This document shows positions 11,257 to 45,577 of a DNA stretch of 64,000 bases, one piece after another. The notes beneath the pieces were generated by a model, which was not told where the DNA came from, did not search any database, and saw nothing but the letters and a program-made list of their open reading frames with translations. The position numbers and the translations under genes are program-made. Origin of the DNA: Undaria pinnatifida. Lineage: Eukaryota > Sar > Phaeophyceae > Laminariales > Alariaceae. How positions within the stretch are numbered: position 1 is the stretch's first letter; each line of letters opens with the position of its first letter. Where the stretch lies: NCBI GenBank assembly GCA_012845835.1, contig JABAKD010000007.1, forward strand, positions 12,030,011 to 12,094,010. The letters run 5' to 3'.

Positions 11257-12501
11257 TCAGAATGAACACTCGGTCTTAACCTTGAACTGTTTGATTTCCG
11301 CGGTACGGTTTGGCGACCGATGAACACTACACTTACTGCGCTCGGGTCGCACGGTGAGAATAATGCCTGTCACCATGGTAGCGTGATTACCGCAGTGCGA
11401 AGGCTGTTCCTCGACGACTCCATGAGTCGCCCAGTTGCGGCAACCAACCACCCTGCACCTTGCTTTGAAGTTGATCAAAGGGCTGTTCAAGGCACTACTC
11501 CTATGCTCAGTGCAGACGGTTGCGACACCGCCCGCCAGTACTCCCCAGGAAGGTTGTCTCTTACAAGAGTCATGTGAGCAATGCGTGTTAAAGACGTCAA
11601 TCATGCCGTCATCAGCACCTCGCTTGCAGTACGCACCCCGCTTGCTTCTTTCAACAAGGTACGGAGCGGTCATCGTGCCACTTTTTTGTCGGCGACCATT
11701 GAATTTAAAGCAGACCATATTGTCCTCTGCATGTTGCTTGCAGTACGCACGTCCTTTGCTGCCTTTGAGATTGAAGGAAGAGGCTGTCGTGCAACCATCA
11801 TGTCGGCAACGCCTAGAAAGAAGACAGACCATACCGTCCTCTGCATGTTTCTTGCAGTAAGCACCGGTTTTGCTCCCCTCGACACCCAAGGAAGGAAATG
11901 TCGAGCAGCCAATATGTGAGCAACGCTTGCTTAGAATGTCGATCATACCGTCCTTTGCATGTTGCCTGCAGTACGCGCCAGTCTTGCTTCCCTTAAAATT
12001 GAAGAAAGGCTGCGTCATGCAGCCCTGATGAGTGCATCGCTTGCTCGTAATATCGATCATGTCGCCCTCAGCATGTTGCCTACAGTATGCGGCTCTTTTG
12101 CTGCCTTCAGCGTTGAAAGTGGGTATTTTCCCGCAGCCAATGTGCGAGCAACGCTTGCTTCTAACGTTCACCATGCCTTTCTTGGCATGTTCTCGGCAGT
12201 ATGCACCGCGCTTGTTGCCTTCAACGTTGAACATGGGTCTCTTAGTGCAGCCATCATGCGGGCAAGGATTGTGTTTAACGTTTATCATGCCGTCCTTGGC
12301 GTGTTGCCTGCAATACAAACATATCTTGCTCCCTTTCACATTAAAGGAGGGCAATGTCGTGCAGCCATCATGAGAGCAGTACCTGTTGGAGAGCTTGATC
12401 ATCCCGTCATCCGCATGCTTCTTGCAGTAGAGAGTCTTCTTGCTGCCCTTGACACCGTACGCCGCCCAACTTGCGCAAACAAGATTTGAACAACGTCCCA
12501 T
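11257..12501 (-). CDS. EsV-1-7 repeat protein (10 cysteine-rich units)
   Basis: A 414-residue protein from a single uninterrupted exon. It is built of tandem C-X4-C-X16-C-X2-H-X12 units, the EsV-1-7 motif, starting at residues 4, 42, 80, 118, 156, 194 and 232 (seven good units). A degenerate unit at 270 keeps only its third cysteine. Two variant C-terminal units start at 308 and 349. Spacer cores such as FNVEGSKRGAYC and DGMIDV repeat throughout. The four C/H positions per unit suggest a small metal-binding (zinc-finger-like) module; that is inference. In brown algae the family includes IMMEDIATE UPRIGHT (IMM), a developmental regulator in Ectocarpus, but I cannot assign this gene to IMM. The ATG at 12501 is chosen because the MGRC start is shared with the paralog at 44447, along with about 130 bp of upstream and 85 bp of downstream sequence. 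No signal peptide or membrane segment is seen. Confidence 0.93.
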   Translation of the reverse strand: MGRCSNLVCASWAAYGVKGSKKTLYCKKHADDGMIKLSNRYCSHDGCTTLPSFNVKGSKICLYCRQHAKDGMINVKHNPCPHDGCTKRPMFNVEGNKRGAYCREHAKKGMVNVRSKRCSHIGCGKIPTFNAEGSKRAAYCRQHAEGDMIDITSKRCTHQGCMTQPFFNFKGSKTGAYCRQHAKDGMIDILSKRCSHIGCSTFPSLGVEGSKTGAYCKKHAEDGMVCLLSRRCRHDGCTTASSFNLKGSKGRAYCKQHAEDNMVCFKFNGRRQKSGTMTAPYLVERSKRGAYCKRGADDGMIDVFNTHCSHDSCKRQPSWGVLAGGVATVCTEHRSSALNSPLINFKARCRVVGCRNWATHGVVEEQPSHCGNHATMVTGIILTVRPERSKCSVHRSPNRTAEIKQFKVKTECSF

Positions 12502-12606
12502 ACCAACGCCAGAATAAGGAGCCTAGGGTACCTGGAACCGAAAATATCGAGGTTACTGATGAAAAGGGTGGTATATACATTGACGGTACAACCAAAACGC
12601 GTGGGG

Positions 12607-12616
12607 CTTTAAATAG
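12607..12616 (-). promoter_or_regulatory. TATA-like box upstream of the EsV-1-7 gene
   Basis: On the minus strand this reads CTATTTAAAG, 106-115 bp before the ATG at 12501. The spacing would allow a short 5' UTR. The paralog at 44447 shares the adjacent GCCCCA(C/T)GCGTT block but has no TATA-like match at the equivalent place, which weakens the call. Confidence 0.3.
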
Positions 12617-12719
12617 CGGGCAAAACCAACAGTTGTGTGCACATGGGCGCAAAAGAAGTCATACTATCATTTTCCGACCTCTCTGGCGCTAGGTCATGAA
12701 ATTTCGTCAATAAGGAAAG

Positions 12720-15700
12720 TATTGGTTGCAACGTAAGCTCGCCGATTATGCGGTATAATAAAATAGCCCTTTGCGAATTTACCATGGGTAAGGGCGGTCG
12801 TTGACGGCTCTACCCTACAAACAGAAGAAAAAGCTCTCTGACGAAAAGCTCGGGTAGTACTTGTGCCGGATTTCCCGGATGACGGCCACGGTGCGGGTGT
12901 GAAACACGAACGAGAAGCTGACCAACCCTGGCGAGTATATCTATAGCACATGTGGAATTGACATGAGCATCTTGGGGGATCCCAGCAAGACGGCCGATGA
13001 AGCGCACCAGCACTTAGGATAGTACTTGTGCGAGAACGACGCGACACGATGTCCGATTTAGGGAGTATCAAGGGAAGGAGGTTGGCTTAAGATACGAACT
13101 TGTCAGTGGAGTCAGACTATATTCTGGTCACGCGAGAGGTCGAGTTACAACGTTTTGATTTTACGACGGTAGCGCCATAAGCTACATAATCAAATGCTTA
13201 AATGCCGACACTACGCCTTGCCCATTACCAAACGGGTGTCCTCCAGATATCTTGGGACTAAACAAACACACTGCTTAGACTACACCACGGCAGTAGCCCA
13301 TTTACGAGGGCAGCCGTGCAAGATTGTGCGAAGCTTAGCGGCATTCTTCTTACAGAAAAATTCCATGTCACTAGTGGAACATATGTGGCGTTTGCCAAAG
13401 AAACACGCATTCGCAAAAGAACAACGATAGGTTCTCTGCAGCAATGCCTCCTCCAGCTACGTCGCAATGACGATATGGAAACGTGCTAGTGTTGCCGCCC
13501 TGGTCGTTCAAGCGAACGTTCTGGTATGGACAATGGGGTTCGGTAATGGTTGTCGTTCGGGTTCGGCACTCGAAGCCAGTTGCAGGTCCAGCGTGAGTCC
13601 ACAATGCAAGGCCAACAGGACCAGGACACAGATTACAACCTACCTACGATTGACATAATATATGCCGCAACGTTGATTCAGAAATTGCTCTTCATTCCAC
13701 TAATTTTCGAGTAGATGATGCCGTCGTTCTAGTACGCAAGCCGCATACATTCCTCACGGCCCTCCGTGGTGGTGAATCGACAGGATGAAGAAAATTATAA
13801 TATGCGAAGGGCGGTGAGACGGTATACGCAGCGCAAAATCTTGACAGCTTTGAGCAGCGACACAATATGCCATGAAAATCCACGATAACGTTCGTGCTGA
13901 ACAAGGTAGGGCGAGAAAAACAGACTCAACGCAGGCAGTCGCAAACAAAAGATGAACACTGAAGATTGTGGGCGATATGACGCAACCTTTCTAGACGAAA
14001 AGGCAGTCGTCATCGAAAGGAACATTCCCAAAATAGCGCTAGTGAAAACAGTAGCTCTATGAGAGGAACAAACGACAACGGCGGGTACACGTCCGTAAGG
14101 CCGAACGGTAACTATGTTTAGTTATATCAATTTAAGCAGAGCGGAAGGTGCACACTAACATGAGCACGGCAACCATGTTGACCGCATAGGGAATGGCCAA
14201 ATATAAAGTGAGGTGAAAAAAATATCATGGCATTCCATGGAGGACGCAGTGACGCCCGTAATTCAACTGAAGACGGATGACAAAACTGTTGCCTTCGCAT
14301 ATTTCACCGTCAACCTGACGGCACGCGGCAGTATTAAGTGTCAGTTGACTGCAAAAAGTAGACAAGCTACCATGTGCGCTGCACCCATTTACACAAAAAC
14401 ACAAAAATTGCCATCATGGAGAGCTTTGAGATGGTCATCCATGACCGAGAGCTTGAGCGACAAGCTGCGGACACAGGAGGCAGGCAAAGTGGCGAAGCAA
14501 GATACGCTCGATGCTGCATACAAAATTGAAGAACATGAACACATGGAGCCAACACCCGCTTCAGCATAATTCTGACGGATGGAATCGGCAAGATCGCCGA
14601 TGACACAACAATATTTGACAAAGTAGAATCGTATCGTCCGTTACCCTCAACATCTGCTTTGTCAATACGGGGTCAGCACGATCCGGAACTGTAGTTGTAT
14701 TAGTCTTAAACGGTCGTGCGCACGAACTTGAGGGAAGAAAGATCAGGGCTCCCACATTTGATGTACGGATGATTTTGGTGTACTGGTGTCGACCCACGAA
14801 GAAATGTTGATTGCTCCCAATCTGGGACAAAGTGTCTCCGCGATGGGAGAACTCTTCGATACTGAAGCAAAAATGTTTTGAAGGCGAGCCCTCTTTTCTA
14901 CCACAACGATTACGGCATGACATTGGTTCCAACATCAAATCAGCCGGTGTTTGCCATTCGTATGGTACTGATTTGTCCACGAAATAGAGTTATTACATGT
15001 ATACTAAACGGCAGTAACACATACTCGTGGTAACCGTGAGATGGGTCTAGGTCGGTCCCGCGATGCTAACGGGACGACTTGCAACAAGAGAGGTTGATAA
15101 TATCGACAGCCCAATTAGACGAAGTTAAAAGGGCAATAGGATACAGGCCGACAAAGCCGGGATTGGACAAGAAGCTAGACGGCATAAATATGAAGCTCAT
15201 AACAAAATGCCAACACATCAATACGGTAATGCAGGGACTGTCGTCATGACACAGGAAAGTATATACAACAATGCACCGAAAACGAATGGCACGACAGATA
15301 CATGACGGACAGACACAATTGCGGCGGAGAGACCCATTAAGAGACCGGAAAATACAATTGTGTAAACCAATGACGTTGAAGAAAACTAACTTTTGTCAAC
15401 CGAGGACATTTCCAAGCAATCAAGTTAAACAGTGGATAGCCATACGCCACTGAGATGTGTGACAGGATCTGGTACTTGTTAGAACAGAAGCACGACCATT
15501 GGTATTGTTTACAACGAAGGGTCAACAAACGAAAACGCTTGCACCGTGACAGGGGTCGTTGGGCAGGTGACAAGAGCAAAAACGCCCCCAATCGATTGAG
15601 AGACGTCGTTGGAGGTGGGAACGTTGCGTCGGGATACACCTACTATAGAACCAGTACATGATAGGGCACTACAGCGGTTTGTGGGGGCAGGGGCGTGGAT

Positions 15701-18150
15701 ACGACATACTGCAACCTTCACAATCGGCACGCTGCCAAAGAAAAAGCCAGTAAGCAAACAAGTGAGACGCGCACTGCCAGTAAATGCGGAGCCATATCAC
15801 CGTTCGACAAACAAGATTAAGCCTCGCACGAAGCCCGAGGCTGCAGTTTATCTCCACGACAAACAAAATGATCCAAGACAACGCGTTGGAGTGAAGTACA
15901 CTGTAACGGAGTTAACGGACATACATATACACTCTTACGAAACACTTAGGCGCGGTAAACGTTGGTGAGAATCGAAAACAGTTTGGACAGTGAGTGAACG
16001 ACTCTCAGGTTCGAAATAAAGCAAACTATCGACAGGGTTCACTGGGGGTGATCGGAGAAGTGCAAATAAGGTTTTTGATACATTTGAAGCAATCGTTGAT
16101 ACATTTTGGTCATTTGTAAATGAATTTATATTGCTGACGGGAATGCAAGTTGGTATCAGAACGCGTGATGGTATGAAGTTGTTCTTAAGACGCTCTGTCT
16201 ATTGTTTATCGTTTCAAGAACGACTCGAGAATCCCAGTTGAGTCGTATACTGTACACGAGCCCGGTTTTCTAAGATACAGAAAGGTCGATGCAGGAGGTT
16301 TCGACAGCTGCGGTGTGACCGATCGATCCCGTCTCATTAGTATATGACTCGGGCTGTGCTCAGAGCCTGCTACCTAATGTCGTACCGCTAGTATGCAGAC
16401 GCAATTTAGGAAATAGAATGAAAAACAAACGTATTTGTCTTGATTGAGAGATGGGTCGGATGCCGGCCAACGTCACTCGTAAACGCCTTCGATGTAAGGT
16501 GCAGCGCGCACGAAGACGCCAAAATTTAGCTCGTTTAGTTTTTTCGTGCGTACGATCGACAAACGCGGTTATCCAAAAATACGTTGCTCGGCAGCAGTGC
16601 AATGCTCTGACGCCAACTCGATTTCCTTGATCATCGTTTGACTTCGTGACAAACGGAAACTCTAATGTACACATGACTCCGTGGACAGCGTTAACGTAAT
16701 GACGAACACTGGTCGGCCACTCCCTTGAGTTTGGATCATAAAATATATTAACTAGCAATGTAGCTTATCTTGAGAAAATAGTTCGGGATAAAAAGATTTC
16801 CATGGTGAGGACACTTGTTCGCCACACATGCTCTGAGTGATAAATTTGAAATACACCCCAACAAGTTAGATTAGAGCGTGGACTAGAGGATTCCCGGTAG
16901 CATCGGAAAAAAAGGCGTAGCGTTGGGAAGTTCGTCCGTTTGGGAGACCATTGAAGACGTTACAGCCAAAACCGGGGTACCACTATAGCTGCCCATATTG
17001 AGCGATAAATGACAACTATCTTCTTACGAAATATTCCTCCAGGAAAAATAGTACCACCGGCTGTGAAAACATTTCACGTTCACTCCAGCAGAAGCTATAC
17101 TCTTGTAAAAGGCCAATGCAATATAAAGAGATGACAGTATCTAATCTAATGCAGAACGAAGTGGTGGGGATATCTATACGGGGCAAATTACAAACGAAAC
17201 ACTGATGGTCGGCCGTAATTAATCCAATGTTGATGTAATACACTCGAAGGAAAGCTGTTCATCTTCAGGCACACGTCTGCAGGTTGTTCGTGTTGTGCTT
17301 CTTTCATTGTCACAACAAAACGTGATACGGGCAACAACTTGGACAGTCGAAATGGATCTGGAAGACAGGCCATACCATATAAACGACAACGTCGGACATA
17401 GCTGCAAGCAGATGGCCCCCAAGGAGGATGTACCAACCGTACCGGCTTGACACAATATATGAAACAAATTGTCATCGTATATACCACCCCATCAACTCCT
17501 GGTTGTGAATTACGACAGTGAACTACAAGCCGATTGTTGTGAACACGGTGACAGTCCTCGTTTATCGGTGGTCCGACGGACACAGTTGCGACTGCACGCG
17601 TGCATAACGTCGAATTATGTTCCCCGGCCAAGAATCCTGAAAATATGGCCTAATCACGGTGTGGAGACAGAGGACCAAATAACGGGCATGCCCACCATGG
17701 AGCCGGGACGACATTAGTGCGCATCGCAGGCTTTGCTGCCAGCGAAACTATATCGAGCACAGTCCTTTCGGATAACTTAGTATAAGTGCAAGGTCTCATC
17801 ATGGTGGGCTCACCGTGCACCATCAACGGTCAATATGCATATAAATCTCGTAGAGTCGAGTAGGTACAGAAGAAAAATCTTTTTCGTCAAACGCCATACA
17901 ACAGGAACACATCAATATCATCAAAATATCGCAGTGTCGTGGTAGTAGTCATCGACATCTCATTCCAGATCATTAAAAATATTCGGTTTCACTATAATTT
18001 TCGGGTGGCCCGCCCAATCCTTTACCACCCGGTTCCCAGCAAGACCCGAACGCCCGTTCCACGACTACCTCACACATCACCCCTCCATGTCGCCGGAGAA
18101 ACAACGGCCAACGGTTCCCAGCTGTGCGAGCGGGTAGCGTGAAAGGTCCA
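12720..18150 (+). pseudogene. Fossil gene cluster, unidentified, possibly virus-derived
   Basis: About 5.4 kb of plus-strand sequence in which coding-like frames follow one another. Residue composition and phrase-like segments are clearly non-random: STCGIDMSILGDPSKTADEA near 12.94 kb, TIFDKVESYR near 14.6 kb, AEPYHRSTNKIKPRTKPEAA near 15.8 kb, AIVDTFWSFVNEFILLTGMQ near 16.1 kb. It is broken many times over its length (dozens of breaks) and no gene is whole. I cannot match it to a family. The absence of recognisable transposase or reverse-transcriptase motifs and the neighbouring EsV-1-7 gene make an old integrated large DNA virus one possibility; dead host genes are another. Judged by its decay it is old. 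Confidence 0.4.
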
Positions 18151-18689
18151 CCCAGGGACGGTTCGATCACCCCCCGGGAAGGCGGAGAATCTCAAGAAAC
18201 GGGATATCCCCACCCAGCGGTGGTGCGTACTCTCGCCCTGCTGTTGTGCCGTTATGGATCGGTCGCAACGTACAGCTCCACTGCTGTGGCACTTCTGTGT
18301 TTGGTTGGATAGTAAATGGTTAGTAGATGGAGTGTGCTCGGTGGGTGACGGCTAACTCCCGATGCTCGAGATAGCGGTGTGCTGTAAAAAAACGAACTTA
18401 GTCGCGATTGCTACGGGGCTACGGGTCCTCAAGACTTTGGAATCAACCAACAGCTCCTCGCGTACCCATACACTACCGTATGTATTGCTTAACGGCCGTA
18501 CTGCTGAAGTGGGTTGGTCGAGAGGTGATACGTGGGTGGTTGGTACAATGGGCGGTGGCTGGTGGGTTGGTGGGTTTCGCACCTTTCATGCTTCCCTCTT
18601 ATTGTGTGCCGGATTACGACCGTACGTACTACTGCTGCAATGCTGAGCTACCTCGTGGTAGTACCGTTGTGTTACCTGTAACATACTTC
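18151..18689. other. Intergenic stretch with GGTG-rich patch
   Basis: No supported gene. A GGTGGG/GGTT-rich patch lies near 18530-18580. Several overlapping short frames exist on both strands without motifs. Confidence 0.4.
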
Positions 18690-18785
18690 ATGCTATACTG
18701 CAATATATTACAAATAAAACTACACTCCAGCTGTCAGATCAACTAGTATGTCCAAACTCATGTTTGCAGGGTGTGTGAAACATGC
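18690..18785 (+). repeat. Truncated copy of the G-tract repeat family (5' end only)
   Basis: The stretch beginning TACACTCCAGCTGTCAGATC and continuing through AAACTCATGTTTGCAGGGTG matches the first ~75 bp of the repeat copy at 50690 (TACACTCCAGCTGTGAGATC, then AAACTCATCTTTGCAAGCTG). It is followed by a GGGTGGGTGGT tract at about 18797-18830 in place of the G runs of the full copies. Confidence 0.65.
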
Positions 18786-21353
18786 TATTGTAGGTTGGGT
18801 GGGTGGTGGGTGGGTGGTAGGTGTGCTAGGCGGGTTAGTGGATCCTTTTATACGTTGCTTGATTTTTTCGTGCAGTCGTGGTTTGCTGTATTTCGCACCA
18901 TTTTTTTCTTCCGATAACCCGGCCGGCAACTGGAATATTTCGGGGGTACCATTTGTAACCATACATACCCCAGGAAACGCAGTCTCGGTGATGCCGTCCC
19001 GGTTTCCTGAACCCGCTATAAGACACGAATAAGGCAAAGTACCAAAACAGTGCTAAATCAGGGAAATAACGTGGAGAGTTTTGAGGTTCGTACCACGGAT
19101 ATTTACATATATTGTGGGTGCAGGCAGTTACAACAACAATGGTATGAGACACGAGGTATTTCTCAAAGACAGAGGCAGAAAGAAGAGCATATCGCTGTAC
19201 ACATGCAGGTCATAGTGTGTAAAACTCCTGACCTTTGCAGGGCAATGTGTGCACAACTCGTCAGATAGGCACTTGCAGCTATGAATAGGGGGAAAGAATG
19301 CACGGCCTGGCTATACTTGGAGATCCGTACATCGGGTGCTATCAAAAGTGGGCACACACACTGCGTATCAAGCCAGAAGAAATAAATACATGAAAGAAAC
19401 GTATTGCTGAAATTTACGTGCACGGTCAGCTAAACGGGTAACGAAAAGGAACACACGAGCACCTACGAAATTGAGTTGACAGTTCATGTCTTAAATCTAG
19501 GTCAAGAGCAACCCCTCAAAATAATGCGTGCATTCTCGCTGCCCGTGATACTGTTGGTCTGCAATACGTAAAATGAGCCACAAACACCAGCTTTAGTTGG
19601 TTTCTTTTAGTTACAATTTGCAAAGCTAACGTTGGTAACACTTCACTACACTGGTAGAAGTCGGAAAAAAAAATAACAACGTGCTGCATTTCCTCGCACC
19701 GGACGCCTAGTGGTGAACAGGAATCACCAATATTGTGCAAGGAGTATTTTACAAGGGGTCCGCACTCGTCCAACTGCGCCTTTAACCCAACGCGTCCTAG
19801 CGATTGCTTGCGGTTCTTGTGCAAGGTGCGTACCACAGCATTGCTGCGCACCAGTAGCCTGTAGAAGGTTGTATTATATACACATACGTGCGGCACGTAC
19901 GAACAGTATACAGAAGTCGTGCTCCTGTGATTGAGGATTAATTGTTTTCACCAGCCAAGCATTGGGGAGGGTAATTATTAAGCGTCCTTCTGGTGAATCA
20001 GCAATGCATGCTCTACGAATATATGCATATGTACCATTTTGATTTTTTTGCCTAGTCCGTCCCTTTTTCTCCGCCGGCAGAGTTTTTTTGTGTGCTTTCT
20101 TCTGCAATGCGATCAGACTACCCGTCGGTATATTATCAGCCGTGTGCCGGGCTCATGGGACGTCCGTGGCGCGAGCTATGGCCGCGGAAAGCCGCCGAGA
20201 CTGGCTCTATTTTGCGGGGTATGAGACGCTTCTGTCCCCGGGCAACCACACACTAGACGTATTTAAACCTCGAGGTTAGGTCTTAAGTACTTCCAACTGG
20301 AAGAGCTAGGCCATTCGATACTTCGACCTTAAACGCATAAAAAAACACCATATGTCTAAAACTCGAAATAGTGGTCTCTTTCAGTACGCATAAAAAGAAA
20401 AGCCGAGGAAAGATCAAACTACTTGAAAATAGACTATGATATTTCTGCACTACTCCAGACGCAGATGGCAAGACGAGGATTTATGTCATGAGTCAGCACA
20501 TGAGTGGGTGGAAACTTCGAGAAAGACCCTCCCCTGCCCATGCTGTGCGAGCTTGAACAAACGGCCAAAACAAATAACTGGTGCCTGGCAAAAACATTGA
20601 GTGCTTCGTACTTCATACTCGCTTCATATGTAGGATACCTCGCAGGCGTCTGCCGCCTTCGGTGTGCCTCAGTGTGGCAGTCAGTACAGCAGCACAGCAG
20701 GACTGGCCCTCAACCCGGTTCAATTTCCACCCTCGAAATGTAGGCATCCGCGGGAAAGAGGCAACAGGGTTGTAAACTGCAGCAGCAGCTCCGGCCATGC
20801 GCTACGTCGGGCACAAAAACCAAACAAAAAAAATGTGTCATCAAAAAATTAGAGCCTCTCAGGACGAGAGAGCAGGAGCACGAGCGCGCGATGAACTATG
20901 TCAGAGTCCCAGTTCTCTGACCGCAGAGAACGCCAGGGTAGGAGGAGTCTCGCGGGCGTTTTCCACCGGCTAGTTGTGCTGTAGTTGGGTTAGGTGTTGG
21001 GGTGCTGGTTGTCTGTGTGTTGTGCTGTGTTGTTTTGTTTTGTGGTGTGTTGTGTTGTGTGTGCGCTCGATCCTCGTGAATGAACAAGGACTCCTTCTCA
21101 AGTAACAGTACGTAGAGGCATGCCGCTCCACGAGAGTGGGTCGCCTCTGACCACCGCCAACGTTTCTGATGGTGTTGTACACGCAGGTTGATTAACCCGG
21201 GTTGGGGATACACCAAGCGGCTTGCTAGGTTGAGCGTTGCAATTACTGCGTGGGTGTTGTGCTGTGCTGCTGCTGCAGAGTGTCTGATGTTTCCTCGAGC
21301 TTTTGTCGTCTGAAATGCTGTTGTTTGCTGGAAAATACTAGGAAAATTGCTTC
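18786..21353. other. Intergenic stretch, weak coding-like patches only
   Basis: No gene is supported. A plus-strand frame at 20150-20279 and a minus-strand frame at 19516-19896 look mildly coding but carry no motif. A GT-rich stretch (TTGTG/TTTTG repeats) lies at about 20985-21062. Confidence 0.4.
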
Positions 21354-21393
21354 AAATATGCACTTGGGCCAAAATGTGCCCAAGTGCATATTT
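21354..21393. repeat. Perfect inverted repeat, 16-bp stem, 8-nt loop
   Basis: AAATATGCACTTGGGC (21354-21369) and its exact reverse complement (21378-21393) flank CAAAATGT. No CTRR-type Helitron end follows it closely. It is isolated, with no gene recognised on either side. It could be the core of a small transposon end, a fold-back element, or a structured RNA. Confidence 0.85.
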
Positions 21394-22255
21394 TGGGAAA
21401 ATCCACATCTCACCGTGGTCAGCCGTGGTCGTTAGGTCGATAAAATAGACCTATTTTTTAGACATTTAAAACACGATAGGGCTTAATTCGGTTTAGAGCC
21501 AAAAAGAAAAGCATATCGTCAGGCTTAAATACGTCTACTACACACATGGTGGAACTTTAGTCCTCGCACGTACATCGGGGTGGCATCAAAATGTATTTGC
21601 GAGAGAATTTTCCCGCACTGCTAGACGCGGGCGCGGTGTATATGTACCCGCTGCAACGACGTGAACTATGTCATTACTGTGAGTTCTCCCTCACAATTGA
21701 CACGGTGGTTGCCATACAGCAGTAACGAAACCTGTATAAAGAGATATAAAGTAGCAACACAACTCATGCAAAAGTAACGATGTGCACACAACAGACCATA
21801 TCGGCAACAAACATCGGTATAAACTGTTTAACTGTTTAAGCGCGCGGGGAAAAATACTGGACACAGAAAACAAACAACAAATTGACACCAATGATTCCTC
21901 TAACAGCAGCGACAGCAGTACAAACGTAGAATTAATTGCTGCCACGCAGTTATACGGAGTGGACTTTCGAATAACTTATCACACCGAGCCTCAGCAATAT
22001 CCCAACCCTCCTCCTCCAAATGTCTGTGATATCTTATATTATCCACATTATTTCCACTACGCATCCCTCCGATATACACCTCCTGCATAAATACTTCATC
22101 ATCCGTTGTAGTCATTCGACTTGCGTCGCCCCCGGGAGGCACGTGTCCACCTGCCGAAGGGGAACCTTGTAATACCATACATTTACGATAATTAGATCAA
22201 CGTTCGCCGCCTCGCAGTAAAACCCTCCCAACGCCCCAAAGGGTATCGGGTCGCC
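21394..22255. other. Intergenic stretch with a possible coding relic, minus strand
   Basis: At 21900-22178 the minus strand has an open frame whose residues look coding (for example TTTDDEVFMQEVYIGGMRSG), but no family is recognised and neighbouring frames are broken. The rest holds nothing I can support. Confidence 0.3.
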
Positions 22256-33332: not shown

Positions 33333-33400
33333 CCGAGAAGTTTTGAAATTTTGCTGGTCGTGTTTGGTCGCGACCTGCAAGATAGGGGTCACTCGCGGAT

Positions 33401-34605: not shown

Positions 34606-34880
34606 ACTGGTCCATTCACCCGACCCGCATGGATGACCAGTTACACGGAATGTGGCCGGTCGGGTCGACTTGGTTGAACAGGATTTTGAAAGGAGTTGGT
34701 CGGGTCTGGTCGGGTCAGGAGGTTTTCAAATGTCAGGTGTCGGGTCAGGTCGGTTCAAGAGGTGTTAACACTATTCGGGTGGGGTCGGTCTGGTCCAGAC
34801 GTTCCAACCATTTCGCGGCTTGGGTCGGGTCAGATAGCTGTACCCGACTTGGGAGATTTGACCTGACACGCGAAAAGCCC
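34606..34880 (+). repeat. Degenerate GGTCG-type repeat
   Basis: Interspersed GGTCGGGTC, GGGTCAGGTCGG and GGGTCGGGTC motifs separated by A/T-containing spacers such as AGGAGGTTTTCAAATGTCAGG. The same spacer type flanks the pure array 1.3 kb upstream, so this looks like an unexpanded relative of the sequence from which that array grew. Confidence 0.75.
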
Positions 34881-36200
34881 TGACATTCGTACACTTACTC
34901 TCCATGTGCATCTCCTCGCCTGACCTCCCAATATATATAATGTAATATGTTTATATGTTTGCCCAAATTATTTTGTCTAAAGGTGGTGGACATTTTCCGA
35001 AAAATCTTTAATTGACGAAAAAAAGGAAACCCAAAACAATGAAAAATGCAGTGTTAGGTCTTCGCAGGGACATATATTATGTGTGCCAAATTTCACTTTT
35101 CGAATCGAAAAAATGGCCTAGACATCCGCCGTAAAATACATGGTTCGGGATTCTAAGTTGAACAAGCCTGTATACGCTCATTCCCTTTTCTAGTCGGATT
35201 GCGAACTGGTCGTGATCCCTGGTGTCATGCATTGTGGTCTGTTCCGGATGCGGCTCTTGGCCCATTTTGTGAGAGTATTCAGTCTGCCGCGTAGATACTG
35301 ACTGCCGATAAATGTGTTTTTGTTTGTGGCACGGGCGAGAATTGCTTCAGCTGTGGTACGTATTTGTGGCACCGTTGGTTGTTAATATTTTTTCTTCAGC
35401 TATTTTCCCTTTCTAAAGCGTCTGAAGCCTTTCCCGTGACCACGAACTTGATTATGCTAGTTAACTCGAGAACAACAGCAACGGCAGCAGCATCACTTTA
35501 CCGAAGAAACAACGTCGCCAGGAAGCAACCAAATTTTGATATTAAAATGGCATTACCTTCAAAGCTGTTTGTTGAACGCTTAATTACAACCACTAGCACA
35601 ACGTGTTTCGGACTCTGACCGGCGAAAGAAGGATACGAGAGACGGGTAAACAGAAATCAAGATTCTTCGTAGCAGGCACGTTATATGTTACATAGACAAT
35701 AATGCATTTAGCATGCAACCATACCTGATCTGATTTGCAATTTGCAAACCTAAGTGGAATCGAGAATGCAAGGGCAGCTAACGATATAATGATATCGCGC
35801 TTCCCCGATAGTATGCACATAGGGGTAAAAGGAGTCCACGTACTTCGAAGCATATCGGCAGGTTAAAAGTAACATATGGCATATTTACGATGCGTTCATG
35901 GTCGTGACCTCCCGCCACCTCCAAGGCGTATGAAGCGTTACATTGATTCCCCGCGAATGCTCACAAATAATAGACTTGTGGCAAACGATTATGTTTTCTT
36001 TTTTTCCAATGCTTGGTATTGATGATGCCTCGTGTAGTAACTCAAATTGTTTTCGAGCACGCGTGCCTGACAGTCCGTAACTCATAAGACACTGTTCCGA
36101 ACCCACTAGACTCCTGCTGTTTATTTTTCGTACGGCCTTAATGAGTAGATTCCGTAGAAGGTGCAATTTCTTGAACAACCTACCGTCTATTGCTGTTCAG
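34881..36200. other. Intergenic stretch with a coding-like minus-strand patch
   Basis: Between 35593 and 36178 the minus strand has frames with coding-like composition (for example SYGLSGTRARKQFELLHEAS). No family is recognised and the stretch is broken. Elsewhere nothing is seen. Confidence 0.35.
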
Positions 36201-39200
36201 CATTGCCGAGTGGGACGCTTAGCATGGTAATGTGTTTTGTCCAGGACCATCGGTCGGACTGCTCGTGGTACCGAAATAATGGGTCAAAGTCAACGTAACC
36301 GGTGCTTGGTCGTTCACGTCTCGCAAAAAAACGTGGACGAGGTCTATATCATATAGAGCTTTGGCCTCCGCAAGACGCGCAGGGACACCCTGTAAAGTTA
36401 ATCGCGAAAAGTTTTAGTTGGTCCCTTCTTCGGCGAAGAGCCGACGAACCAGTAACATTTTCGTGTTACCGCGTCTACCGATGTAGAACTTTTTTCAAAA
36501 CGTTGTCTTTGCATTTTGTAGCCTAAGGAAACCCTAACGCTTACCTTTATGTATTTGCGGAGTTTTCGTTTTTCGTTTGAGCAGTAAAACGGGCAGCATG
36601 CGTTCATTCACCAGTTGTAGCCCTTTGGTTCTACCATGACGATGTCCCGAGGCAAGCAATGCCTGCTTGTCTCCAGAAATAATCGATTGTCCTGAGTCTC
36701 GGCCCCTTCTATTGACCGTGCTCGTAGATTGTAGCGAAACATGTTATGTTTTTGTCCAAATAAATATTTGTGCATGTTTTGACTTCGATTATATTTCTAC
36801 CTGCTTAAACGTGTGTATCACGTGCAGTGTGTATACCCACATTCTAGAGTATCCGCGGGAGGATCTTCGAAAGGGTTCCGCCAGGTTGTGCAGTGGTGCC
36901 TATAAAATTTTTCTTTGTTTTCGGTTTTGTTCCTGTTGCCTTAACTCGGCAGATCAACACCGCGTAAATTTGGTTCAACTCATGCTTAAGGGATCAAGAT
37001 TATTCATCTCACGAATACACAGTCACCCCGCCCTTCGCGTCCACATAAACTTCTCAACTTTAGATGCGCTCTTTGCCGATGAGGAATAGCTCAAATCATT
37101 GCTTTCAAGTTTACCTGCATTACGTGTAGTCAAACGAGTACTTATGTCCATGCTAGTAACTTCCAAATACGGCATTTTACCCCGATTTATAGTCTTTTTT
37201 TAGTATTTTGAATGATTTTTACGAAACGTCCGAAACCCGGTCTCAACCATAAACGGGGACAACACCAGCTAGCTGCGTTTTAAGCAGTGTATTTAAATAT
37301 TTATCTCGGTGTATTCCGTTTATCGATCATGTTTTTTCTTCTATACGTTTTCATATGTGTCCGACTGTGTAACCTTTTCATGTGCAATCTGCCTTGAGGG
37401 TACACGTTCCGCCTGCTACCACCATGTTCCCACGATAATGGTTCCTCCCATATACCCTGAGATTTCTCAAGGGACTCTACTGCGCATCATTTTTACCGGC
37501 AGCAAGGCCCACGATGCGCACTTATGCCGTTCCGACTTACATGGTGTCCATGCGGCGCATGCCGTCCTTGGACACAGCAAAGTCAGTGTGCCATCGGAAA
37601 TTGAACTTCTTTCAGGTTAACCGAGTTCGACATTTTCACGAGTATAGCCACAACTGTGTCAGTCGTCCAACGTATTTAGCAATGTCGTCGTACCCACCCC
37701 CCTCTCTCGACTTCAAGTTCGAAAGCGAAGTACACGGCCGGGTTTTGCGTGTGATATCTCATCAAGGTCGTGGCATTTTGGCTTTCTACCTTTTTTATGG
37801 GAGTATGGTTGTCATTTCAGCAAAAACCATTAACTGGCTGCTTGCAATGTCTAAAATGTTTAAGGCTGTTGTCTATATCGAATATACCGTTCGGCCTCTC
37901 TTTCATTCTTATGTCGACTGTCCAAATACTCGCCTATATAATACTTTTGACCTGGCTGTGAACGCAACGTGGAACTAATAACTTGAACACCTCGACCAGA
38001 TATTGAGTATGTGAGACCAGGGTAATATGTCCACACTTGATTTTTGAACGAAGACAAACTGTAGTTTATTGCAATTTTCGCCGGCATAAATTTCCAACGA
38101 CAGCCTTATACTTGATGAAGGTTACGGATATTGTATACAAGACGTTGGCCTTGCGCGATACAAGCTGCCGCGGGAGGGTATTTGAGTTCGTTTGCAGCCG
38201 CTGTAGACAGTTGACTTGAATAGACTGTTATTTTGCAGCCAGTTGCCGTTCATCGTTCTTTAGTCAAAATATGCAATTTCAACGGTAGTCCATTTGGTGC
38301 CGTAACTTTATGATTGACGGACCTCTCGAAACTGACGAACTACCAAACACTGTATGATCTCCGTTTGTTCTTTACGATAGGACATTTTTAGCGCACAGTC
38401 CACGCTCTACTTTTTTTTTGGGACGTGTACGTTATGTTTATTACTCGATGGGAGTATTTGTGGCATGCATGTGTTTTTAGGTGGAAACCCTCGCTCGCCC
38501 AACTGCATGATAAGCATAATAACCTGCATGACTAGATTTCGCGTGCAACGGAGAAACTGCCACGGCAATTGACCCGTGTTCTGTTTGTTGTAGCGGCATA
38601 TGCGTGTTTGTATTCCCTTTGTAAATGGTCATCATCACAATGACAATTTTCGCTAAGTAATACTCATATTCGTCTTTTGCCTTGCACCAATTATCAGCAG
38701 AAGCCGAGGAAGGTCAATGTAAGGCCGGGTCAATACCTTGCCGCCGAACGGCGTATTGTCGGCCCACCATGATGGTCAATCGTACAGGTATTAAATTACC
38801 GACCCAAATCAACTTCTGCGGCTTAGTGCGGGATGCATCCTACGCCGAAGATGTGTTAAAAGTGACGTTTCCCTCAAACTAGCCTGTCCCTGCCAACGAG
38901 CCTAGTCATTCGATTTCCACACTGCTTTCGCCAATCTGCCGGCGCTGCAGCAGCAAAGCATAGAGCAGCTGGCGCTGAGCAGAGTCTAGGCTATATAAAA
39001 ATCACAGCGGATAGAACGATCACAACACCGTCTTGTTGACTTCCTGTACAGATCATTTCGACTCCTTGTAAACCCCTCCCCCTTAAGGTACACAAGCCAA
39101 ATATTCTACTCAGCCTCTTTGGATACAAAAATGTTAAGGAGATGACCTGTAAACATTTCCTCCATACCCGGTCGCATTCCTATATCAACTTGCATTCCTG

Positions 39201-39207
39201 TCTTGAT

Positions 39208-39208
<1 letters not shown>
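36201..39208. other. Intergenic stretch, weak plus-strand coding-like patches
   Basis: Plus-strand frames at 36667-37089 (140 codons) and 37309-37978 (two overlapping frames) are longer than most, but show no domain or motif and no splice context I can defend. A small frame at 38682-38882 is similar. No RNA gene was seen. Confidence 0.35.

Positions 39209-39209
<1 letters not shown>

Positions 39210-39239
<30 letters not shown>
39210..39239. repeat. (TA)n microsatellite
   Basis: An uninterrupted TA dinucleotide run of about 14-15 units. Confidence 0.9.
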
Positions 39240-39242
<3 letters not shown>

Positions 39243-40564
39243 CACCCTTATTAATCAAAAGGCGTCGCAAATAGTGACAGTATTGTTATGTACAGTCCCC
39301 CATTCGCCCCGCTATATAAACTCCACTGCTGTGCCATATATGGGTACAATGGGACATATCGAAAACGAGAAACATTCACCCACAGGACAGAATGACAATC
39401 TTGTCACCATCATGTGTGGCGCCCTCGCGTTTCGTAAGAAATATGTTGCCCTCAGAAGTGCGATGCAATGTACTTAACATCCGAAACGTTTGTCTCAACC
39501 AAAAATTATATCGTGGGGAAAAACTACCTCGTTCGACGTGTTCGTGGTCTAATCCTGACCCGGCTACGGTACAGGCGTTCCTTTTGGGGGCTTTCGTTGC
39601 AGTGGTTCAGAGTCACTGGCGCGAGTGAACGCCCTAGTGTGCGTTAATTAAGCGGGGGAATCGCAAACGACGCTGAGCCAAAGAATTCACCTTAAACGTT
39701 TTTCTCCGTGAGGTGCAGAGTCACTCCTGCGAACATGATATGGTAGTATGACATAATACCTCAAATACACTAGTGAAATCTGGGTTGCCCCTCTTACTAT
39801 AGCTTTGACTTTTTTCGGTTTGACTGCCGGGTTAGACTCCATATTTGTCGGCAGTAGAAAACATCTCGCTTGTTTTCTGCTGCCTAGGTTGATGAAGCGC
39901 AGTTTGTGCGTTTTCTAGTTCCGTGTCGCCTCCCGGGCTTGCCTCCACAACTACTTGTAGGGGATCCAATATGTACTCATTCTTATGAAGATGCATCTCG
40001 ACACAGGCTTCGTAACTTCGACAACCGTGACCAGGCTACGGGAGGTGCTCTCACTCTTTTCAAGTACGGGATGACTCCCTGGCAGGCAGCCGTTTCCGTC
40101 TTTGGGCGTTTCGCTCAAAATATTCCGTAGATTCGTTTTGCTTTTTTTTTCAGGCACGAGATAATTCTGACACACGCCAGTGTGTCGTAGCTCCTTTTAT
40201 TGTTCAAACTAAATTCCTAAGAAGTGTCCTCTCTGGCGAAGTTATTTCGTCTACGGCGTCCATGGTTTCTAAGAATTTAGCTTCGGGTATCTAGAGCGGT
40301 CTCCATTCCGAAAATGTATCCGTCGCGCATATACCTGCAGTTTCCTGCGCTCTCCGTGTCCTCTTTGTTATTACTTCCTCCGTCACAAAAATTTTGCTCG
40401 CGTTAGCATCGTAATGGATTCCGTTTCATGTACCGACCTGCAATCGTGTGCGGTTTAACGTAACGTCACGTGCGAGCGCAGCTCAACTCGCGTATACGAT
40501 ACAGTCGCACGTTTTCTCCGGTCTTTGGAGCTGTTATAATATCAAACCCCAACGATCTAGTCGT
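39240..40564. other. Intergenic stretch, nothing recognised
   Basis: Short frames only. The plus-strand frame at 39906-40130 looks faintly coding. No motif or repeat was found. Confidence 0.35.
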
Positions 40565-41023
40565 TCAGCTATCAGCAAAATAGAGTTTTTTTAACCAATG
40601 TCTAGGCTGCTTCGAGTCTGTGTTCAATGCCTTGAGAGATATGATGTGATGACGTCGTTTCCTTGAACCATTGCGAGATATGCATGGTACGATCATCGGC
40701 TGACTTTCGATTAAGACGGAAAACACGCTGCTATCGTTGCGTAACAACGTATTCTTCGCCATCACACGGTCATTCACTTTCGTATCGGGTAGTGATCTTA
40801 CCCGGGATTCTCTCTCTCCCAGATGGGGAGTAATCAACACACCCTCGTGGATCAGCACCACTACATCAGTGTAATTCCGTGCACCGAACGCCCATACCAT
40901 AAGGCAATCGATCATGCCGGCCACGTGTTGGCAAAACTGATATGCGGGGAATGCCGTAGGATGTTTTTCTACTCTGTAGATTACTTTGGTGTCACTTGCC
41001 ACCTTGCTGTTTCCATCCTCCAT
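40565..41023 (-). CDS. Hypothetical 152-residue ORF
   Basis: The longest clean ATG-to-stop frame outside the EsV-1-7 genes that is not made of repeats. Its composition is balanced and coding-like: VAGMIDCLMVWAFGARNYTD near residues 34-53, a charged middle, and a basic SRNGSRKRRHHIISLKAL segment before the C-terminal RHWLKKLYFADS. I recognise no family, signal peptide or membrane segment. It could be a small gene, one exon of a spliced gene, or the last open piece of a decayed element. The SINE at 41060 starts only 37 bp upstream of its ATG. Confidence 0.35.
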   Translation of the reverse strand: MEDGNSKVASDTKVIYRVEKHPTAFPAYQFCQHVAGMIDCLMVWAFGARNYTDVVVLIHEGVLITPHLGERESRVRSLPDTKVNDRVMAKNTLLRNDSSVFSVLIESQPMIVPCISRNGSRKRRHHIISLKALNTDSKQPRHWLKKLYFADS

Positions 41024-41059
41024 CTATACTGGGAAGGCGGGGGGTTCCTATATTGTACT

Positions 41060-41347
41060 GGCTGCCCCAGTGGCGTATCAGGTTGTCCTCGAGCCTGGTA
41101 TAGGTCAGTTTCGTGAGTTCGAACCCACCGAGTACATATTCGTATATGTCCGTGGGGACTTTTTCTTTTGCACGAACTGACTCGCGGAAAGCGCGAGAGC
41201 GTGAGCTAGCAACGCTCGATGAAAAACCGACGAGCAGTGAGATTGCTGAACCCTTTGCGCGATGAAATTAACAGCAAGAACAGGGGCGGGGAAGGGACGA
41301 CACCTGTAACCGCGGCTCGTCCAGAAGCTGGAAAGTAGAGGTGTGCA
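41060..41347 (+). mobile_element. tRNA-derived SINE, copy 1
   Basis: The head is tRNA-like: a pol III A-box match TGGCGTATCAGG (41071-41082) and a B-box match GAGTTCGAACC (41115-41125), 44 bp apart. The head is followed by about 220 bp of tRNA-unrelated body, ending CCAGAAGCTGGAAAGTA and then an A/T tail. The copy at 53023 aligns over the full length. Pol III transcription and LINE-driven mobilisation are what the class is known for; the partner LINE is not identified. Confidence 0.87.
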
Positions 41348-41400
41348 AATATATATATGTATATAATATATATATGTGATTTAAACAAAACTGCCTGAAA

Positions 41401-42560
41401 AATCCCCCCCCCCCCCCGCCCCCCTCCCACCCCCCCCCTCTCTCGCTTTCCCTTACTCAAACGCCCCACCAAATATCGAAATCCGCCATATTAATAAAAA
41501 CTTCACGCACGGGATATCACCTCATTATCTTTCGAGAGCCATCCATGCCTCTGTTTCCCCCCCCCCCCCCCCCCGCCCCAAACGCCCCCTTCTTCCCCAT
41601 CACCCGCACCATCGCCTAGACCTAGCACCACACGTATAGCAAACCCCTCACCTAAAACCCTTCCTTTCACCCCCCCCCCCCCCCCCCTTGCCCCCCCCCC
41701 GCCCCCTCCCCCTCCCCCCCTCCCCGCCCCGCCCGCCCCCACCCCCCACCCCCCCTCCTCCCCCCCCCCTCCCCCCCCCCTCCCCCCCCCCTCCCCCCCC
41801 CCTCCCCCCCCCCCTCCCCCCCCCCCCCCCTCCCCCCCCCCCCCCCCCCCCCCCTCCCCGCCCCGCCCGCCCCCACCCCCCACCTCCCCCCCCACCCCCC
41901 CCCAACTCATCCCAACCCCACCCCGTCGAACACTCCACCCTCTCTCTACTCACTGATTGTACGACTTACCCCAGGATATACATGACAATCTGATGCATTA
42001 TTTCCCAAACCGTCACATTTATCCCTTCAAAAATAATGTATAGTTTCCACGCACATATTGAGCTGCCCCATACGCCCCCCCTCAGCCCCAACACCCCCGC
42101 AAAAATAAACTGGTGCCAAAACCGTCAGATTTATCCCCTTGAAAGGATTTATAGCTTACATGTACAATATGCCCGCCCTTTCCTCCCCCCCCCCCCTCCC
42201 CCTCCAAACCCGCTCGCTTTTGATCAAAACCAGGCCCCCACGTCCTTAAAAACTCCGCCCCCACCCCTCACCGGTTATTCGACATACAAGATTCCCTTTA
42301 TTAAAGGATACATTGCCCTCCACAGCTGTCAGATTTTGTCCCCCTTAGGAACGGGGTTTATAGTTTCCGTGCACAAACTGACTAAAAAACACCCTGTTGA
42401 CCTTGATAGCTACACTGTAGTTGTAAGGGCAGTCGCCGACCTATATCCTTAATCAGCACACACATCTTGTAATGCGCGCGATCGGAGTATCACACACAGC
42501 TTGCAAAGATGAGTTTCGACGAAATCTTTGATCTCACACCTGGAGTGTATTTTCATTTTC
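41401..42560 (-). repeat. G/C-tract repeat family, copy A (inverted, ~1.15 kb)
   Basis: Read on the minus strand from 42560, this matches 50690-51245 and then parts of 51420-52275. Shared blocks are CTCCAG..GTGAGATC, AAACTCATCTTTGCAAGCTG, GATATAGGTCGGCGACT, TGACAGCTGTG, GCGAGCGGGTTTGGA and CCTGGGGTAAGTCGTACAAT. They are followed by GCTATACG..GTCTAGGCGA and CATGGATG..TGATATC blocks separated by long G runs (C runs on the plus strand, 41401-41460, 41558-41576 and 41671-41910). It has no open frame of its own; the proline- and glycine-rich frames are artefacts of the runs. Confidence 0.85.
41671..41910. repeat. Poly-C / CCCCCT low-complexity tract
   Basis: About 240 bp of nearly pure C on the plus strand, broken by single T, A and G bases; part of repeat copy A. 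Long Gly-rich (minus) and Pro-rich (plus) frames here are not genes. Sequencing length errors are likely in such a tract. Confidence 0.95.
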
Positions 42561-43237
42561 TATAGTATATATACATTCATGTGCTTGTGATTTTCATTCG
42601 GCATTGAACGCATCCTTTTCCACTCTATCAGCGGCCTTCTTCAACTGCACGAAATCATGAACTTGTCGTCCGAGCATCGTCAGTGACCGCTATCAACCTC
42701 TCTTCAGCGGCAATTTCTGTACAATGTTGAATAGGCGCGCAACACGCCTGAAAGTTGATTTTGCTTTTGCCGCTGGCCTGAACGGTATTAACATTGTGCA
42801 GGTTTCACTATTCTAGTGACGTAAGTTAAACGGACAGTGTGACGTCCGCGGCCAGTTTAATTGATGTCCCGACGGCAGCGACCATGGTTTTTTTTTCCCG
42901 TCTTGAAATTTTGTGATTTCATGTGAGCGCCCGCCGCTTGCAAACTTGGTACGTCATTGCCGCATTGCAGCATAAGCGCGTCCTGCCTAAGGTTGTTCAG
43001 CGTTAGCGTTGTCGTGGATTTGCTGAATAATGTATGACGTTGCACGAACGCTTGCGTGCCTTGGACGTTGTTGGTGCTGCCAGGACGCTCCGAGTCACAT
43101 TGCATCGCATTCTTTATCGGTTTGTATTATTTGTCGTCAAGAAGAGCTGCGAAGAATGCCCGAGTCGTGCGTGTTGGAGCTACGACATTAACTATTGATC
43201 TGGATTTTACTCGGATGAGCAATCTGTATCTAATTGT
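42561..43237. other. Intergenic stretch, nothing recognised
   Basis: Short frames only. No motif and no RNA gene seen. Confidence 0.4.
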
Positions 43238-43363
43238 GCTCGCGGAATAGTATTTTGCAACGGCTATCATATTTAAGCTAGGGACTTGACCATGAATTTC
43301 GCTCGCGGCATAATATTTTGCATTGGCTATCATATTTAAACTAGGGACTTGACCATGCCGCGC
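43238..43363. repeat. 63-bp tandem duplication (two units)
   Basis: Units at 43238-43300 and 43301-43363 share GCTCGCGG, ATTTTGCA, GGCTATCATATTTAA and CTAGGGACTTGACCATG with few differences. The length is a multiple of three, so a minus-strand frame stays open across it, but no gene is supported there. Confidence 0.9.
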
Positions 43364-44446
43364 TTGCAATCTAGCTTTACCAGCGAGCCGATACTTTTTT
43401 AAAAAAAATCTCAACAGCACGGCGACTAATCGCTGAATCTCGTTCTCCCTTCAGAAACGTGAGCGTGTACGACTTGAGTGGTAGCCCAAGCAAATCCCCT
43501 TGGTCAATCCGCTATAGCTGTATGAGTTGTTGTCAAGAAGGGCTGTTATTGCCATCGATGAACCGGCTTTTCATGGCAAACGGCAATCATGTCATATTAT
43601 CATATTTATTTTTTGTTTCTGTTGGGACATCTTCCCACGCCCGCTCTCGTACACAAGCGATCGCCGCAGTGTCGTGTAAGCGTGATACTGGGTGGGTTCC
43701 CCATTGTTCTGCGAATACGCTTTCGGTAAGATGTAGGACACGATATCCGAGCTTCAGCGTCAGATCGTGCTGCAGCTGGCATTCACGAGAGCAAGCGTTA
43801 AAGCGAAAACATAGTGAAGTCATCTCTCATAGGAAAGCTGTAGCAGCTTCTTGCACCGGCGGTTTTTGTATGCTAGTACACCACTTTTGTCTAACCTATA
43901 ATAGGCAGAAATCCTTTCGAGTCGTCCGCGCACGACATATGTCGTAGTTACTGCTACGGTCCACGGACCGTTATTTGGACAGACCCCGTTTGTACTCTTT
44001 ATTTTCATGCCCTACAGATTAACTCGTCAGGATCACCTTCGTGTTTTTGCTCCCTCCCAAAATGGCCGTCCTTGGGGAAAGGCCAATTAACTATTGCCCA
44101 AGTTTTGTCTTGTTTCTGTGTTTAGGATTGGGTCTTAAAAATAACGTTACGACTGTTTTCATCCTCACTAAATTTTAGACGATGTCCCCGTTCTTCTAAT
44201 CGAAGAGGTTTAGTGGGTTTGTGGTTTGCCATAAGCGGTCCATGTAAAGGTTTAAATGATTTAAGGACATGGAGGTTGAAATGCTTGAATGGTTTTTATG
44301 TGTGCTACACCCACATAATCAATAACGGTGTATCCAACCTTCTTTTGCAATGCCCCATGCGTTGCGTTGATGGGATCCTCCATTTTTGTCCCTTGTTATT
44401 ATGTTCTCTGTGCCAGGTGTCCCACGATCCATAATCTGGCGTGAAC
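43364..44446. other. Upstream flank of the second EsV-1-7 gene, with a coding-like minus-strand patch
   Basis: At 43587-43823 the minus strand has coding-like residues (for example LGYRVLHLTESVFAEQWGTH) of no known family. The last ~130 bp before 44447 align with the flank of the other EsV-1-7 gene; shared pieces include GCCCCATGCGTT, GTGCCAGGT and ATCTGGCGT. Confidence 0.5.
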
Positions 44447-45577
44447 ATGGGACGTTGTTTAACCCCCCGTTGCACAACTCGGCCAGCCTACGGCTTTCAG
44501 GGCAGCATGAAAGCAACCTACTGCAAGAAGCATGCGAATGACGGCATGATCAACGTGTGCGGGAAACGTTGCTCATATGATGGCTGTACCAAGATATGTC
44601 ACTACAATGTTAAAGGTAGCAAGATCGGTGTTTACTGCAGGTACCACGCTGAGGATGGCATGGTAAACGTCAAACACAAGCGTTGCTCACATGGTCTCTG
44701 CACGCTATTACCTTCGTTTAATGTTAAAGGCAACAATGTCGGTGCTTACTGCCGGAAACACGCTGATGACGGCATGGTAAACGTTAAACACAAGCGTTGC
44801 TCACATGATGGCTGCACGAAGATTCCACATTTCAATGTCGAAGGGGGCAAGCGAGCTGCGTACTGCAGGCAACATGCTGAGGACGGTATGATAGACATTA
44901 AAAGTAAGCGTTGCGCACATGGCGGTTGCACGCTATCACCTTCCTTCAATGTCAAAGGCAGCAAGAGGGGTGCGTACTGCCGGCAACACGCTGATGAAGA
45001 TATGGTAAACGTTAAACACAAACCTTGCTCACATGACGGCTGCACAAAGATTCCCTCTTATAATATTGAAGGAGAGAAGATCGGTGCTTACTGCAAGCAA
45101 CATGCAAGGGACGGCATGGTTAGCGTTGTCTCCAAGCGTTGCCGGCATGAGAGTTGCACGACGATCCCTTCATTCAACGTTGAAGGAAGCAAGCGGGGCG
45201 CGTACTGCAAACGACATGCTAATGACGGCATGATCGATGTCTCCAAGAGGCGTTGCGAATTCAACTCTTGTAATAAACAACCGTCCTGGGGTGTACTGGC
45301 GGGCGGTCTCGCAGTCGTCTGCACTGATCATGTGGGCAGTGCCTTAGGCGGTCCGTTGATTAATTTCAAAGCAAGGTGTAGAGTTGTTGGTTGCCGGAAG
45401 TTTTCGACGTGTGGACTTGTCGGGGAGCAGCCATCTCACTGCGGTTATCACGCTACCTTGGTAGAAGGCATTGTCCGCACCGTGCGACCAGAGCGGAAGA
45501 AGCTTGGAGATCATCAGTCGAAAAACAGGGAGGCAGTATTCCAATCTTTCAAGGTGAAGACCGAATGTTCATTCTGA
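44447..45577 (+). CDS. EsV-1-7 repeat protein (9 cysteine-rich units)
   Basis: A 376-residue single-exon protein. Seven canonical C-X4-C-X16-C-X2-H-X12 units start at residues 4, 42, 80, 118, 156, 194 and 232, all with the four C/H positions intact. Two variant units follow at 270 and 311: the first has 15 residues after its His, the second has X15 between the inner cysteines. The tail ends FKVKTECSF. The second unit carries an extra Cys (CTKICHYN). I place the start at the ATG at 44447 (MGRC...), not the in-frame GTG six bases upstream, because the paralog starts at the same residue. A metal-binding, possibly regulatory, role is inferred from the family, which in brown algae includes the developmental regulator IMM. 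It is the more intact of the two paralogs. No signal peptide or membrane segment is seen. Confidence 0.95.
   Translation: MGRCLTPRCTTRPAYGFQGSMKATYCKKHANDGMINVCGKRCSYDGCTKICHYNVKGSKIGVYCRYHAEDGMVNVKHKRCSHGLCTLLPSFNVKGNNVGAYCRKHADDGMVNVKHKRCSHDGCTKIPHFNVEGGKRAAYCRQHAEDGMIDIKSKRCAHGGCTLSPSFNVKGSKRGAYCRQHADEDMVNVKHKPCSHDGCTKIPSYNIEGEKIGAYCKQHARDGMVSVVSKRCRHESCTTIPSFNVEGSKRGAYCKRHANDGMIDVSKRRCEFNSCNKQPSWGVLAGGLAVVCTDHVGSALGGPLINFKARCRVVGCRKFSTCGLVGEQPSHCGYHATLVEGIVRTVRPERKKLGDHQSKNREAVFQSFKVKTECSF

Follow-up and report, generated by a model that had tools for sequence, protein, structure and literature searches.

A probable old inverted segmental duplication carrying an EsV-1-7 gene in the brown alga Undaria pinnatifida

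Background

EsV-1-7 proteins form an expanded family in brown algae, as has been described in print and as an earlier reading of the DNA studied here, made from the sequence alone (the sequence-only reading), had noted (PMC12993054, PMC7457493, PMC12629598). In Ectocarpus species 7 the family numbers 90 proteins, hypothesised to be zinc-finger transcription factors (PMC12629598), and its developmental member IMM (IMMEDIATE UPRIGHT; PMC12993054, PMC7457493) acts in early sporophyte development of Ectocarpus (PMC12993054). EsV-1-7 genes are enriched among sporophyte-biased genes (PMC6368402) and are known in viruses (PMC7457493), and an EsV-1-7 domain forms the N-terminus of TcMar-2_Ec32, a Tc1/mariner transposase (PMC12477816). 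Among the open-access papers that our searches listed, we found no account of how EsV-1-7 copies arise or of their duplication. Here we analyse a stretch of 64,000 nucleotides from Undaria pinnatifida (contig JABAKD010000007.1, positions 12,030,011 to 12,094,010; hereafter the window), which contains two divergently oriented EsV-1-7 genes, A and B. We propose, with good confidence, that the two genes lie in the arms, approximately 12 and 11 kb long, of an old inverted segmental duplication in which both copies of the gene have been retained.

The two genes and their family

The sequence-only reading had listed A and B as open reading frames (ORFs) on opposite strands. Both are real by our ORF listing and by their matches to the Pfam family PF19114 (EsV_1_7_cys), and they point apart (Table 1). 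Their scores, 336.4 bits for A and 345.5 bits for B, lie far above the curated Pfam cut-off of 25 bits, and in common with the family, to which Ectocarpus IMM belongs, they have recurring 38-residue units with the ligand spacing C-X4-C-X16-C-X2-H (read off the sequence, with the period holding over the regular units). Within the family, A and B are distinguished as arrays of ten and nine units followed by a common C-terminal tail. The unit numbers given earlier stand, but unit 8 of A (A8) has lost three of its four ligands, so that all four are complete in 9 of the 10 unit slots of A and in all nine units of B; in the last unit of each array one residue fewer separates the second and third ligands. 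The common start and common tail that had been reported are also present, as MGRC and KVKTECSF. In-frame stops lie just 5' of both ATGs (the stop-to-stop ORFs begin at 12522 for A and 44435 for B), which makes the common ATG a plausible true start, and both genes are intronless as read.

The TcMar-2_Ec32 transposase (PMC12477816) has the EsV-1-7 domain in common with A and B, in which the Pfam scan detected no second domain apart from a sub-threshold zinc finger. This is a ten-residue match of B to the WRKY19-type zinc finger (PF24906; E 0.0059, 16.9 bits where membership requires 27), and B is not a member of that family. No further EsV-1-7 array was found when a unit profile was run against all six frames of the 64-kb window. 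Both products are basic and rich in Cys and His (isoelectric point 9.53 for A and 9.40 for B), and on the published family hypothesis the arrays would most probably be zinc-binding and may also bind nucleic acid.

Extent of the inverted homology

Old segmental duplications and inverted repeats are a familiar kind of structure in nuclear genomes, and as in these, the homology found here is collinear over coding and non-coding sequence alike. A self-comparison of the window with a permissive scoring scheme shows homology beyond the flanks first reported. With the coding sequence (CDS) of both genes masked, nine of the eleven inverted matches with an expect value (E) below 0.1 fall on one collinear chain that joins 10713-22592 to 46566-35586. 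Its outer blocks pair 10713-10823 with 46566-46455, 10853-10938 with 45953-45871 and 10972-11253 with 45865-45586; the middle blocks pair 13712-13904 with 43194-42993, 14577-14683 with 41018-40910, 14757-15812 with 40888-39818 and 15812-17817 with 39557-37420; and the far blocks pair 19538-19658 with 36597-36474 and 22188-22592 with 35971-35586. Two of these nine matches have E 0.06, and the two matches off the chain, at 18712-18777 and 27565-27672, hit a repeat family at 42 and 50 kb. As controls, the right half was block-shuffled ten times and searched on both strands, which produced one match in total, and it was also reversed and compared with the left half without masking, which produced one match at E<0.5.

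When the arms are aligned globally with the genes included, they are 59.7% identical over 8746 columns, compared with 50.3-50.5% in three controls (one reversed arm and two other stretches of the window). The four 400-base windows holding the gene reach 68-78%, positions 14600-17799 reach 54-60%, and 22200-22599 reaches 61.5%; homology is dense up to about 17.8/37.4 kb and patchy further in. Outward of 10713/46566 the best match is one of 20 bases at E 0.45, and inward of 22592/35586 there is a 26-base match (E 0.018) and another at E 2.6, the arm edges being approximate because of the high divergence. The sequence-only reading had proposed an inverted duplication that took the gene and its flanks together, and the collinear inverted homology, non-coding DNA included, agrees with this; its segment size of about 1.4 kb has to be replaced by about 11-12 kb per arm, as measured by the masked chain and the arm alignment. 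Relative to segmental duplications and inverted repeats in general, the arms are strongly diverged, with approximately 57-60% identity in the well-aligned non-coding parts, and they lack the near-identity that a palindrome kept alike by conversion would have (59.7%; synonymous divergence, dS, 0.82).

The EsV-1-7 gene is the one part of the duplicated block in which coding is clearly conserved. Elsewhere in the arms, repeats aside, a protein-level comparison (tblastx without linked statistics) returned only two weak matches, 15247-15468 (E 4e-4) and 14768-14848 (E 0.004), where a short exon may lie. Directly beside the genes, similar flanks of about 130 bp upstream and 85 bp downstream had been reported, together with the proviso that likeness ending at the start and stop codons would speak against a shared segment. 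The flanks are indeed similar and the likeness passes both codons, but its lengths differ from those first given. Downstream it is far longer, covering 285/288 bp in one block (62% over 287 columns) and about 400 bp with gaps, and continuing collinearly to 10713/46566. Upstream, the clear likeness comprises 42 bp at 73.8% adjoining the ATG, with an anchored extension of 46 to 109 bp that varies with gap costs, patches of 55-59% further out, and 47% identity over the first 100 bp in a plain global alignment; on this side the inverted homology reaches 22592/35586. These near-gene flanks are part of the larger inverted block.

Divergence and selection

For 376 aligned codons, the NG86 method gives a non-synonymous divergence (dN) of 0.25 and a dS of 0.82 (bootstrap 0.65-1.07). 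The dN/dS ratio, which the sequence-only reading had suggested computing, is 0.30 (0.22-0.41; 300 replicates), and approximately 0.40 by YN00. Other placements of the extra unit of A, over the first 307 codons, give a dS of 0.91-1.03 by NG86 and of 0.70-0.75 by YN00, the latter with the ratio of about 0.40. At fourfold sites 46 of 102 differ, a Jukes-Cantor (JC) distance of 0.69. The CDS is 73% identical and the non-coding arm stretches are 53-63% identical, leaving out the 100 bp directly upstream; three such stretches, compared with their reversed control in equal mode, give 56.6, 57.0 and 58.7% against 40.3%, and non-coding identities of 55.4-63.5% correspond to JC distances of 0.68-0.50. 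The divergence at fourfold and silent sites thus resembles that of the flanks, which fits one old event. Synonymous divergence so high that the flank match must be chance had been named as a reason to give up a common origin; the NG86 value is high, yet of the same order as the flank divergence. Both frames have remained open while their surroundings drifted, indicating that selection kept the genes; this is shown for the two copies jointly rather than for either one separately.

Route of the duplication and alternative explanations

We propose an ancient duplication of a chromosomal segment, approximately 11-12 kb long or more, on which one EsV-1-7 gene lay between its flanks; the copies now stand inverted and about 13 kb apart, as the collinear homology shows. 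The surroundings would then have drifted while selection maintained both EsV-1-7 frames, as is seen for the pair as a whole, and after the duplication interior units would have been gained, lost or overwritten and one A unit would have decayed, which the units themselves show in part. For the route we favour, with moderate confidence, a tandem duplication spanning at least some 16 kb, after which most of one copy (the block at 35.6-46.6 kb) would have been inverted. The hint comes from a second, direct pair of segments at 25 and 53 kb (Table 1), which is diverged as the arms are: its identity is 59.5% against 43.6% in the reversed control, where the arms show 56.6-58.7% against 40.3%. No protein-level match at E<0.01 joins this direct pair outside the younger repeat. 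Tandem duplication followed by inversion would explain the arms and the direct pair jointly.

An inverted duplication in a single step, by template switch or fold-back repair, would differ in route only and would make the direct pair an unrelated old repeat. We consider this quite possible, at somewhat below an even chance: the arms by themselves require one event, and the direct pair has no extension on the right and none on the left beyond a 25-base match (E 2.0), as would be the case with a short element, but its divergence equals that of the arms and no terminal inverted repeat was found at its ends. It is improbable that a large mobile element carrying an EsV-1-7 gene inserted twice and so gave rise to the arms. 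The Ectocarpus Tc1/mariner transposase with its N-terminal EsV-1-7 domain (PMC12477816) implies that elements can carry the domain along. Against this, no terminal inverted repeats rise above shuffled controls at the six pairs of ends tried, of which four belong to the arms and two to the direct pair, and no transposon domains occur in the ten ORFs scanned of the 79 listed, although divergence could hide either, and within the window the arm sequences, younger repeats aside, match each other only. An inverted duplication of gene size, about 1.4 kb, would account for the gene and its near flanks showing the strongest similarity, but it is very hard to maintain when CDS-masked collinear homology spans approximately 12 kb. 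A retrocopy of a spliced transcript, as the intronless ORFs might suggest, is scarcely credible, because the homology continues for kilobases beyond the gene.

Several points weigh against our reading of an old segmental duplication with both genes kept by selection. Between 12600 and 14599 the arm windows reach only 51.8-55.5%, near the control level, and from 17800 to 22199 few columns align, apart from 19000-19799, so that the far portion of the arms rests on few patches. The direct pair could be an unrelated dispersed repeat, and selection on one copy of the gene could be weaker than the average for the two. Furthermore, dS is uneven along the gene, at 1.17 in units 1-6 (with no defined value for unit 4) and about 0.5 from B unit 7 on; turnover or misalignment of units, partial conversion and chance are possible causes, and the first three may disturb the estimate. 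Third-position identity is 58.9% in units 1-6 and approximately 69% from B unit 7 on, for which conversion, misaligned units or chance are possible causes. As to the products, structure models are of low confidence (predicted local distance difference test, pLDDT, 28.5 for B with A as alignment and 57.6 for one unit with 15 rows), and the function is therefore one that we infer.

Turnover of units within the arrays

The common unit order that the sequence-only reading had described holds at the ends of the arrays only. In a unit tree which, like the pairwise unit comparison, took in 15 regular units, A1 groups with B1 (100/99), A8 with B7 (91/98, moderate) and B3 with B5 (93/87), but in the interior 9 of the 12 inner branches stay open. 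For several A units the nearest B unit lies off position (A2 resembles B3 or B5, A3 and A5 resemble B4, and A7 resembles B5), and B3 and B5, at 82% DNA identity, are the closest pair among the 15. The extra unit of A is best placed as A7, with 575 identical sites against 568 for the runner-up. The pairing of A1 with B1 and of A8 with B7 suggests that the array ends are older than the duplication, that is, these end units were probably already present when it occurred, and the interior likenesses together with B3 and B5 place the one-unit length difference inside the array.

The decay of A8 can be followed against B7. Its ligand changes are Cys to Arg, Cys to Gly and His to Gly, with the third Cys and the reading frame kept. 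In a relative-rate test on positions where the other units agree (50% threshold), private residues number 10 in A8 to 0 in B7 (p 0.002) and DNA differences 14 to 7 (p 0.19), p-values that are biased because the test was chosen once the decay was seen.

Table 1. Coordinates of the duplicated block, its genes and associated segments in the window
Feature	Positions	Strand	Remarks
Left arm	10713-22592	plus	CDS-masked chain and arm alignment; dense to about 17817; 26-base match at 23114-23139 may extend the edge
Right arm	35586-46566	minus	Chain and arm alignment; contains younger repeats; 26-base match at 35429-35454 may extend the edge
Spacer, about 13 kb	22593-35585	.	Only two inverted matches at E<5 (0.018 and 2.6), 22500-29000 compared with 29000-35600
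EsV-1-7 gene A	11257-12501	minus	414 amino acids; all four ligands in nine of the ten unit slots; PF19114 E 8.2e-103
EsV-1-7 gene B	44447-45577	plus	376 amino acids; nine units; PF19114 E 1.1e-105
Degenerate unit 8 of A	11581-11694	minus	Codons compared with B unit 7; position by 114-base period
Units B3 to B5	44684-45025	plus	Position by 114-base period; B3 and B5 near copies
Segment in which no coding conservation was detected	25020-26449	plus	Copied in direct orientation at 52910-54610, with divergence similar to that of the arms
Direct copy of 25020-26449	52910-54610	plus	Broken by a younger repeat at about 53026-53322

Other features of the window and relatives elsewhere

The spacer holds a pentamer array of GGTCG at 32891-33332 (88 copies, 98% match). 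A dispersed repeat family occupies 41947-42574, 50677-51242 and 51491-51855, with approximately 73-91% identity between pieces and C- or G-rich runs nearby. The repeat of about 300 bp at 53012-53312 that splits the second copy of the older direct pair has an 83% identical counterpart at 41050-41348. At 48912-49131 a 110 bp unit occurs twice, head to tail, with 95% identity between the copies, and the two copies of a direct repeat of about 340 bp, at 26475-26807 and 31171-31504, are 74% identical and match at the protein level in at least two frames. An ORF of 179 amino acids at 37439-37978 matches COPI_assoc below the threshold (E 0.0011; 19.5 bits, with the cut-off at 30).

As a third EsV-1-7 copy, the likeness at 47671-47745 (minus; 25 residues holding a stop, tblastx E 0.010) is unproven. 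Its unit-profile score of 3.5 bits is not clearly above shuffles, given 3.7 bits at another place in the window and, among eight shuffles, one at 4.4 and seven at no more than 2.5. The stretch at 50309-50437, at 2.8 bits, is likewise unproven. Beyond the window, a search of phage records with B as query gave no match, four queries against viral contigs and the unit alignment against prokaryote contigs gave no convincing relative, and a search of solved structures by sequence with B gave a best E of 0.52. The sole locus returned matches inside a 1116-residue ORF that resembles a bacterial DNA polymerase III alpha subunit, and we regard it as a chance match. As EsV-1-7 genes are known in viruses (PMC7457493), the viral and prokaryote misses reflect strict search patterns, not absence.

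Implications for the EsV-1-7 family

We tentatively suggest that the EsV-1-7 family may grow at two levels, through large segmental duplications (tandem, then inverted) and through the copying, loss and switching off of single units. Under such two-level growth, and this we put forward just as cautiously, single units would lose metal ligands and drift while selection holds the array as a whole. The pair can be assigned to a probable block duplication, the non-coding DNA of which offers a rough neutral yardstick, with which, given an outgroup, selection on each copy and unit turnover would become testable. Otherwise ordinary, the pair would show one way for the EsV-1-7 family to grow.

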